A stretch of DNA of 64,000 nt from Candidatus Zhuqueibacterota bacterium (GTDB lineage Bacteria; Zhuqueibacterota; Zhuqueibacteria; Residuimicrobiales; Oceaniaggregativiventaceae): assembly GCA_014728115.1 (NCBI GenBank), contig WJME01000001.1, forward strand, positions 1 through 64,000, given 5' to 3'. A program made the position numbers and the translations under genes. Of this stretch, positions 21,911 to 23,770 are shown in pieces. Each line of letters starts with the position of its first letter. Position 1 is the first letter of the stretch. The notes beneath the pieces are model-generated. The model was not told the origin of the DNA. It ran no database searches and saw only the letters and a program-made list of their open reading frames with translations.

Positions 21911-22029
21911 AAATTTACTTTAAATATTGTAAATAAACCATTAAGTTAAAAAATATTTACAAAAATACAAGATACTCTTCATAGCACGAGTATCAGGGTT
22001 ACGATTGATTGATTAAACATCCAGACATC

Positions 22030-23043
22030 ATGGCCAGTAGAGAGCTTGTTCGCAATATCATTGCAGGAAATTCCTCTGACAGAGTGGGCTTGTGGTTAGG
22101 AGACCCTTTGCCCGACACTCTTGAGATTTATCTGACTTTTTTCAAACAACCGAATCAGGAAGAGTGGAGAAAATCACTTTCCGATGATCTGCGCTGGTTA
22201 ATGGCTGAGCGGTTTCCACCCTATTTCGGACCCGATCCTGGGGAGGCACCCTATTTTCCCGGTATCGATAAATCTAAAGTCCATGCGAACCAGGGACCTC
22301 TCGCACAGTGTGAGCATGCAGAGCAATTGGAAGAGTATCCATGGCCGGATCCCTCAAAGATCAGGCTGGACAGCGTTCTCCAGGCGCTGAGACAGACAGG
22401 TCCGTATTACAGGGCCAGCGGATTCTGGTCACCTTTTTTCCACCACATGATGGATTTATTCGGAATGGAAACATTTTTAATCAAGCTCTATACGCATCCT
22501 CAAGTGGTGGAAGCGGCCATGCAAAAAGTTTGTCAGTTCTACTATGATATCAACGAGCAGCTTTTTATTGCCGGCCGAGGACTGATCGATGGATTTTTCT
22601 TTGGCAACGACTTTGGCACACAGCGAGATATTTTAATCAATCCCAATCTTTTCGATCAGTTTGTCATGCCCTGGATACGAATTTTTGCCGATCAGGCTCA
22701 TCGACATGGACTGCAAATTATATTACATTCCTGTGGATCTGTTTACAAAGTCATTGATCGGTTTATCGATGCCGGCATCGACTGTTTGCATCCTATCCAG
22801 GCCAAAGCATACAGGATGGAAGCCAAAACATTGGCTCAATTCAGGGAAAAGATTTCCTTTATGGGGGGTGTCGACACCCAGGAACTCCTGGTGCAAGGAA
22901 CACCTCAAGAAGTAAAGAAATCGGTTCATCAACTCATTGATAGATTGGGGCCACGATTAATCGTGAGCCCAAGTCATGAAGCACTGTTACCCAATGTCCC
23001 CCCGAAAAATGTTCAGGCAATGGTGGATGCTGTTTTTGACTAG
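22030..23043 (+). CDS. Uroporphyrinogen decarboxylase-like (URO-D/MtaA superfamily) protein
   Basis: 337 residues with the URO-D superfamily barrel: SGFWSPFFHHMMDLFGMETF early, then DGFFFGNDFGTQRDILINP, a LHSCGSV motif, CLHPIQAKAYRM, and FMGGVDTQELL. True haem-pathway HemE has a conserved N-terminal arginine/aspartate motif that I do not see. The layout is closer to the methyltransferase-like branch (MtaA/CmuA) and to the many uncharacterised members, often linked to corrinoid or demethylation chemistry. The usual third zinc ligand region reads SHEALLP instead of a Cys. ATG 22030 is taken; a TTG at 22009 is an alternative. No corrinoid protein gene is nearby. The substrate is unknown. Confidence 0.82.
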   Translation: MASRELVRNIIAGNSSDRVGLWLGDPLPDTLEIYLTFFKQPNQEEWRKSLSDDLRWLMAERFPPYFGPDPGEAPYFPGIDKSKVHANQGPLAQCEHAEQLEEYPWPDPSKIRLDSVLQALRQTGPYYRASGFWSPFFHHMMDLFGMETFLIKLYTHPQVVEAAMQKVCQFYYDINEQLFIAGRGLIDGFFFGNDFGTQRDILINPNLFDQFVMPWIRIFADQAHRHGLQIILHSCGSVYKVIDRFIDAGIDCLHPIQAKAYRMEAKTLAQFREKISFMGGVDTQELLVQGTPQEVKKSVHQLIDRLGPRLIVSPSHEALLPNVPPKNVQAMVDAVFD

Positions 23044-23126
23044 GGAACATTAGCAGATTGTATCTGTAAAATCACATGTGTAATTTCGGAGAATTCAAAG
23101 CAAAAAACACGGAAACGGAGAGTATT

Positions 23127-23429
23127 GTGAAAATTACTATCCATGCCAGCGCACAAGATGAATTTACAAGACAAAGTAAAGAAAATGGTTCCAGGCCGTC
23201 TTTTCGAATCAATATTATCGGCTATGGTTGAGGCGCACCCAAGTTGGGCCTGGTGCAGGCTGAAAACACTGATGATAAAGACCATTATTTAAGTAAAGAA
23301 AATGTAAAATTGATTTGGGATGATCGTATTGAAAAGCTGGAAAAAATGTATGGCTCGCTGTCCATAGAGCATATAGATACCTTTTGGCATAAAGGTTTTT
23401 ATCTCCGCTTTCATCACGACTGTTGTTGA
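23127..23429 (+). CDS. HesB/IscA-like selenoprotein (in-frame UGA = selenocysteine 35)
   Basis: 100 residues if the UGA at 23229-23231 is read as selenocysteine. Start GTG 23127 has CGGAG six bases before it. The frame is open from GTG to the TGA at 23427-23429 except for this one UGA. Before it: MKITIHASAQDEF ... FRINIIGYG; after it: GAPKLGLVQAENTDD, an acidic helix, and a final FHHDCC. This is the HesB/IscA-like fold, where a Cys after the glycines and two Cys at the C-terminus bind Fe-S or Fe. Sec35, Cys99 and Cys100 stand close to Cys35, Cys99 and Cys101 of E. coli IscA. HesB-like selenoproteins are a known bacterial family. A SECIS-like hairpin follows the UGA. Overlaps the convergent GIY-YIG gene by 16 bases. 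A decayed gene is the alternative. Confidence 0.8.
23232..23264 (+). promoter_or_regulatory. Bacterial SECIS-like hairpin directly after the UGA
   Basis: Stem GCCT (23248-23251) with AGGC (23257-23260), extended by a G-T pair (23247/23261) and, across a G-G mismatch, TT with AA (23244-23245/23263-23264). The apical loop is GGTGC (23252-23256). The loop starts 21 bases after the UGA and its first two bases are G, as in the described bacterial SECIS pattern (loop about 16-37 bases from UGA, G among the first two loop bases). E. coli fdhF has a GGUCU loop at similar distance. A competing stem GCACC/GGTGC (23235-23239/23252-23256) is also possible. Confidence 0.6.
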
Positions 23430-23770
23430 TTTTGGGTTAGCAATGAGTTGAATATATTTTCCGCCTTGACATCAACACGCCAGCTGTATTGATTGATCCT
23501 GTCGGCTACAAAGTCGGACAAAGAATCCGGGGTCTGTATCAATTTTTGTTTGGTACAATGATCGAGACTTTTGATTGCCCGCTCTAGGGCAAGAGCAGGC
23601 CCCTTTTCGGAAACAGAGCATTGCCAGCACGCTCCGAGTTTTACGGGTTTAAAACTCGCTGTATACTTTACCTTTCCGGCCAAATGCTTGGAAAAACGCT
23701 GTTTTGGATTGTTGGTATATCCTGTATAAAAACTTCCATTTGTACATACAAGAATGTATACCCATACCAT
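23414..23770 (-). CDS. GIY-YIG nuclease-superfamily protein (UPF0213-like)
   Basis: 118 residues. Single GIY-YIG domain: VYILVCTNGSFYTGYT supplies the two-strand motif, NPKQRFSKHLAGKVKYT the arginine/histidine segment, and ALALERAIKSL the catalytic-type glutamate. The first half matches the short UPF0213/YhbQ-type proteins of about 80-100 residues; the C-terminal 40 residues are extra. Members have weak nuclease activity at most and no settled role. The ATG overlaps the stop of the YgiQ gene by one base (TAATG), so the two are translationally coupled. Its end overlaps the selenoprotein gene on the other strand. Confidence 0.85.
   Translation of the reverse strand: MVWVYILVCTNGSFYTGYTNNPKQRFSKHLAGKVKYTASFKPVKLGACWQCSVSEKGPALALERAIKSLDHCTKQKLIQTPDSLSDFVADRINQYSWRVDVKAENIFNSLLTQNQQQS

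Follow-up and report, generated by a model that had tools for sequence, protein, structure and literature searches.

A UGA-containing gene of a Candidatus Zhuqueibacterota bacterium that very probably encodes a selenoprotein with a predicted A-type carrier (IscA/HesB) fold

Does the UGA within a small reading frame of a Candidatus Zhuqueibacterota bacterium specify selenocysteine (Sec), or does it end a short peptide, mark a broken gene or stand for some other amino acid? The frame lies on the forward strand of a 64,000-nucleotide stretch of DNA, which was analysed as a whole and is called the window below. It runs from a GTG at 23127 to a TGA stop at 23427-23429 and, as the initial annotation had described, is uninterrupted from 23127 to 23426 except for a single UGA at codon 35 (23229-23231), giving a reading of 100 residues (...IIGYG-U-GAPKLGL...HHDCC). 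A probable ribosome-binding site, GGAGAG (23117-23122), stands directly 5′ of the GTG, which is therefore preferred as the start over an ATG at 23076. Judged from its sequence and those of its homologues, this is very probably a functional selenoprotein gene, in which UGA encodes Sec within a 100-residue protein of A-type carrier (IscA/HesB) fold. The original interpretation, a HesB/IscA-like protein whose Sec is hidden by a UGA, thus gains support from the conservation of the codon, the machinery in the assembly and the predicted fold.

Elsewhere in the genome that carries the window, UGA is an ordinary stop: among 48 non-overlapping ORFs of at least 150 codons in the window, 19 end in TGA. 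This count favours taking codon 35 as a true stop as well, so that a 34-residue peptide would be made and the downstream half would be either untranslated or a separate ORF, and a 61-codon ORF with a TTG start at 23244 does lie downstream of the UGA. The same count argues against a reassignment of UGA to another amino acid in the lineage, such as Trp or Gly. We found no point in favour of reassignment, and against it stand also a tRNA-Sec with a UCA anticodon (see below) and the fact that the UGA occupies the position of a Cys in A-type proteins; we give it practically no credence. We also inspected the other frames of the window that open when TGA is read through, judging by eye those that have at least 80 codons, contain one or two TGAs and overlap little with other ORFs; the frame of the HesB-like gene itself is absent from this list. 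No second selenoprotein was seen among them, as they consist of a gene with a short tail or leader, or of two genes in one frame.

The UGA is shared by relatives. A UGA-containing reading is present in 9 of 60 genomes (the window's own and 59 relatives), each time with exactly one TGA. When a profile built from nine readings was run against 82 genomes of the phylum, accepting E up to 0.001, 12 genomes gave matches. Ten of these, that of the window included, are strong (102–149 bits) and all ten contain exactly one TGA, while the two weak ones (G055 and G035, about 22 bits) are without a stop and look like ordinary IscA with a GGCSG motif, the G035 reading extending as far as CGCGSSF. A DNA pattern that permitted TGA, TGC or TGT at the codon and demanded a narrow DNA context matched eight loci in a collection of species genomes, every one of them with TGA; seven are taken to be phylum genomes already counted above. 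The eighth, the sole match unassigned to the phylum, is an Anaerolineales member of the branch (L054:1473-1775; DCVT01000031.1) and likewise carries the UGA. A version with Cys at this codon was found neither by the profile search of the 82 genomes nor by the pattern search of the species collection, whose narrow pattern may miss distant Cys forms. The pattern had no match in viral contigs, and a tblastn search of plasmids with the homologue from G063 gave none either.

We aligned eleven readings by codon (the window, L054, L055 to L061, L011 and L051), that is, the window and ten homologues, of which nine come from the same phylum and one from Anaerolineales. TGA falls in a single column in all eleven, and it is flanked by invariant residues on both sides (A9, G34, U35, G36, P38, L42, V43, W64, D65, Y75, G76, F95 and C100). 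Two close pairs show how these sequences change. Between L057 and L061, differences at codon positions 1, 2 and 3 number 2, 3 and 11 before the UGA and 4, 5 and 25 after it, with 8 of 12 changed codons synonymous before and 21 of 28 after; between L055 and L011 the corresponding differences are 3, 3 and 9 before and 2, 0 and 16 after, with 5 of 11 and 15 of 18 changed codons synonymous. In a more diverged pair, L056 and L060, synonymous changes are not in excess, nonsynonymous ones accounting for 16 of 24 and 36 of 47 changed codons. By the pattern of these substitutions, the half downstream of the UGA is under purifying selection in the two close pairs, and a shared UGA with coding signal on both sides is, on the alignment, far beyond chance.

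These results bear on two of the alternatives. One is a pseudogene: a nonsense mutation, or an error in sequencing, would have interrupted an IscA-like gene. This agrees with there being a single in-frame stop and with the presence in the same genome of another A-type carrier above the PF01521 cut-off. However, the same UGA recurs in ten other genomes with the protein conserved on both sides, the third-position bias continues after the UGA in the two close pairs, and intact Cys relatives without the UGA were sought and none was found, so we regard a pseudogene as highly improbable. The other is the true stop, against which stand the invariant residues on both sides, the purifying selection downstream in the two close pairs and a predicted fold that joins both halves in one domain (pLDDT 90); a true stop here is very unlikely. 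The initial annotation had proposed to look in relatives for disrupting changes on both sides of the UGA, and there are none, the relatives having kept both the UGA and the protein around it.

Reading the codon as Sec calls attention to the decoding machinery, which we searched for in the window's own assembly (G000; 6.96 Mb in 338 contigs, 98.24% complete and 5.16% contaminated). A tRNA-Sec is present on the minus strand of one contig (L001:1499-1594, G000:C50), with 71.6 bits for the Rfam model and a UCA anticodon according to ARAGORN, together with SelB (339.9 bits, with its winged-helix domains) and SelA (545.3 bits, 50–55% identical to the SelA of three members of the family). A genome devoid of sel genes, which had been named as a sign against the Sec reading, is thus not what the assembly contains. 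The expectation that the lineage has Sec machinery holds for tRNA-Sec, SelA and SelB but not for SelD, for which the assembly has no match over the cut-off despite the other three components. SelD passes its cut-off in 55 of the 60 genomes, the window's own being among the five misses, and SelA was found in 53 of 60, the window's own included. The best SelD match of the assembly (L023, 74 bits) was rejected as SelD, being below the SelD cut-off and having only AIR-synthase domains in Pfam.

The absence of SelD is likely to be a gap in the assembly. A homologue of the pyruvate-kinase-like neighbour of SelD in G001 lies within a long contig of the assembly (C279), and no gap is revealed there. 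GC content is 0.519 for the stretch with SelB and 0.488 for that with tRNA-Sec, compared to 0.436 for the window; since both values exceed that of the window and the assembly is 5.16% contaminated, the SelB or the tRNA-Sec contig could be foreign. In 12 stretches of relatives, SelB and the tRNA were not found next to SelA, and the only other selenoprotein family sought in the window's own genome, PF02662, gave no match. The SelD searches also returned a 754-residue protein (L071:4650-6911, minus strand of G001:C56) in which a class-V aminotransferase (NifS-like) domain is fused to a SelD-type AIR synthase. Many further SelD matches are open frames of about 730–812 residues without TGA, often beside a SelD with one TGA in the same genome. 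Two NifS-SelD fusions are reported in the prokaryote section of PMC4561486.

Bacterial SECIS elements are hairpins whose loop lies 16–37 nt after the UGA and has a G at its start. The window has a candidate of this kind at 23248-23260 on the forward strand (GCCUG-GUG-CAGGC), which starts 16 nt after the UGA, reaches its loop at 21 nt and has a local fold of -8.8 kcal/mol. The local energy in this first register is equalled by 2.2% of 2000 synonymous recodings of the window sequence, and for six relatives by 0.5–5.3% of theirs. The register is therefore good in 7 of 11 sequences and fails in L054, L055, L011 and L051, where 20–100% of recodings do as well. These four have a hairpin in a second register, noticed after the fact, whose loop lies 25–26 nt downstream of the UGA and has GG within it or at its start. 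An open search with 150 recodings for each sequence (loop of 3–14 nt placed 16–37 nt after the UGA, G among its first two bases, at least four pairs) finds a SECIS-like hairpin in all eleven, seven at 20–21 nt and four at 25–26 nt. All eleven surpass the mean stability of their own recodings, yet in each case between 9 and 30 of the 150 recodings do equally well (9 of 150 for the window).

Within folds of 60 nt, the hairpin of one or the other register is kept in 5 of 11 sequences (the window and L061; L054, L055 and L051). The five pairs of the first register are formed in 87.3% of the alignment cells, and one pair changes on both sides; covariation of this hairpin is not above that of shuffled alignments (59 of 500), and RNAalifold returned no consensus structure over the aligned sequences. 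The latter result is to be expected if the two registers are real. Taken as a putative SECIS element, the hairpin has soft to moderate support, any one of the sequences by itself counting as weak evidence. The passages at hand from PMC9312934, which lists the HesB-like family, state that, for some known genes, the putative SECIS elements depart from the model.

The position of the putative Sec within the protein can be judged by its predicted structure. An AlphaFold2 model made from nine alignment rows has a pLDDT of 90.1 and a pTM of 0.79, with the parts before and after the UGA in one domain. Compared to the PDB, the model matches eight chains at E up to 0.001, all of them IscA, SufA, AQ_1857 or HI1723, with a TM-score over the query of up to 0.70; the top matches are IscA (1r94, 5.9e-6), AQ_1857 and SufA (2d2a). 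In a sequence-profile alignment, the Sec position falls on the first Cys of HI1723 (E 0.0071) and on that of AQ_1857 (E 0.034), in agreement with the initial annotation, which had placed the UGA where the first ligand Cys of HesB/IscA proteins stands. The predicted fold is thus that of an A-type carrier (IscA/SufA), in which Sec would occupy the place of the first ligand Cys.

Assignment to a family is less direct. The best NCBIfam models are those of HesB-like selenoproteins, NF038090 and TIGR01911, each with about 25.6 bits, which does not reach their curated cut-offs of 85 and 66.35. When nine members of the branch were scanned against the two models, 6 matched TIGR01911 and 7 matched NF038090 at E up to 0.01, the best at 1.4e-5 and 5.9e-8 respectively, and Pfam Fe-S_biosyn is under its cut-off for the window protein (E 0.066). 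The proposed membership of the HesB-like selenoprotein family is therefore borne out by the best-scoring models and by the IscA/SufA fold, but not by the cut-offs, and because it scores so far below both of them we treat the window protein as a divergent relative rather than a certified member.

The ligand residues differ as well. A-type carriers have three, one Cys and a C-terminal CxC. All eleven aligned sequences end in Cys, and this residue (Cys 100 in the window, codon at 23424-23426) is the only invariant Cys besides Sec 35. The pair at 99 and 100 that the initial annotation saw as kept is present in only 4 of 11 sequences, that of the window included, and none has CxC, so the eleven share Sec and one terminal Cys instead of the three-ligand site. 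The motif at Sec is UGAP in the window and UGGP in the ten others.

Comparison to known HesB-like selenoproteins (TIGR01911, NF038090) was by way of the family models and the printed motif, and on that basis the window protein resembles them in its best-scoring models, in being a small single-domain protein and in having Sec within G-U-G-x-P. It is unlike them in the motif, as its UGAP does not fit UxGP, the form given for the HesB-like family in a table of PMC13188914; the ten others have UGGP. With the carriers IscA, SufA and ErpA (PF01521, TIGR00049) it shares the predicted fold and, as far as a weak profile match shows, the site of the first ligand Cys, here taken by Sec; it departs from them in that its branch has no CxC tail, ending in one Cys or CC, and in a Pfam score below the cut-off. 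A similar contrast is found within the phylum, where an ordinary IscA-type protein has GGCSG and CGCGSSF and the Sec branch a single terminal Cys or CC. The passages available from PMC11097638 describe a HesB-like selenoprotein of Methanococcus maripaludis that was identified through mutagenesis and 75Se labelling, and on their account this kind of selenoprotein is real in an archaeon. They add, as unpublished, that the disruption mutant still fixed nitrogen. That protein is likened to ours by description, and differs in its archaeal decoding.

The neighbours of the gene vary. In the window it is preceded by a URO-D gene (22009-23043, forward strand) and followed on the opposite strand by a GIY-YIG gene (23414-23770), whose last 16 bases overlap the selenoprotein frame. 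URO-D is upstream in both the window and L058 (54% identical). A hydrolase, of beta-lactamase fold by Pfam in L057, is upstream in L057 and L061 and about 4 kb upstream in L055, and a DeoC-type aldolase (Pfam) adjoins the gene in L060 and is separated from it by other ORFs in L056. No common partner, and thus no conserved operon, was found among nine loci, and as the neighbours differ among loci, gene context suggests no function.

Ordinary carriers of the same fold are sparse in these genomes. PF01521 is over its cut-off in 3 of 22 genomes of the order, and in two of the nine of those that have the Sec protein. Since the other seven have no ordinary A-type carrier over that cut-off, the Sec protein may be the only one of its fold in most genomes that carry it. 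In the window's own genome the PF01521 protein is L064:1501-1806 (G000:C124; 44 bits, over the cut-off). By eye, it reads AGNGHS at the motif of the first IscA Cys and retains a GCGCG tail.

How the gene and its product might work can be proposed from these parts. The ribosome would read the UGA at 23229-23231 as Sec using tRNA-Sec and SelB, with the short hairpin just 3′ of the codon perhaps assisting, and the product would then contain Sec. This Sec would replace the first ligand Cys of IscA, and the Cys-Gly-Cys tail would have been reduced to a single Cys at the C-terminus, in some cases to two. Together, Sec 35 and the terminal Cys may either bind a metal or Fe-S cluster where the two subunits of a dimer meet or form a selenenylsulphide redox pair. 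IscA holds its metal or cluster at the dimer interface, and by analogy this arrangement is slightly more likely for the window protein than the redox pair. A more far-reaching proposal is that the proteins form a separate Sec-dependent A-type branch in which a two-residue site of Sec 35 and the C-terminal Cys has replaced the three-Cys iron-sulphur site. The two residues would be a redox pair of selenol and thiol, or a selenolate site for a metal, and the protein would not be an Fe-S carrier; we offer this tentatively, as a possibility with the balance somewhat against it.

HesB-like proteins have been among the listed selenoprotein families since at least 2005 (table in PMC1088965), and a 2006 list gives 11 of them (as excerpted from PMC1794560). 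For KSB1, taken here to be the phylum of the window's assembly, a table in PMC5029168 lists two single-cell genomes, and the relevant passage of PMC9012183 reports genomes with selA, selB and selD and an absence of selC, citing selC-independent incorporation. Within the portions consulted of the literature on KSB1 selenoproteins, we found no mention of a HesB-like selenoprotein from this phylum. The tRNA-Sec in the present assembly bears on the selC absence stated in that passage of PMC9012183, unless the contig is foreign. As the window protein scores below the curated cut-offs of the annotation models, genes of this sort will probably be overlooked or halved in databases. The finding would extend the reach of a little-understood kind of selenoprotein, the HesB-like, to an uncultured phylum, where it appears as a divergent branch, and Sec with the terminal Cys, as a conserved pair, would provide a simple, testable functional hypothesis for the family.
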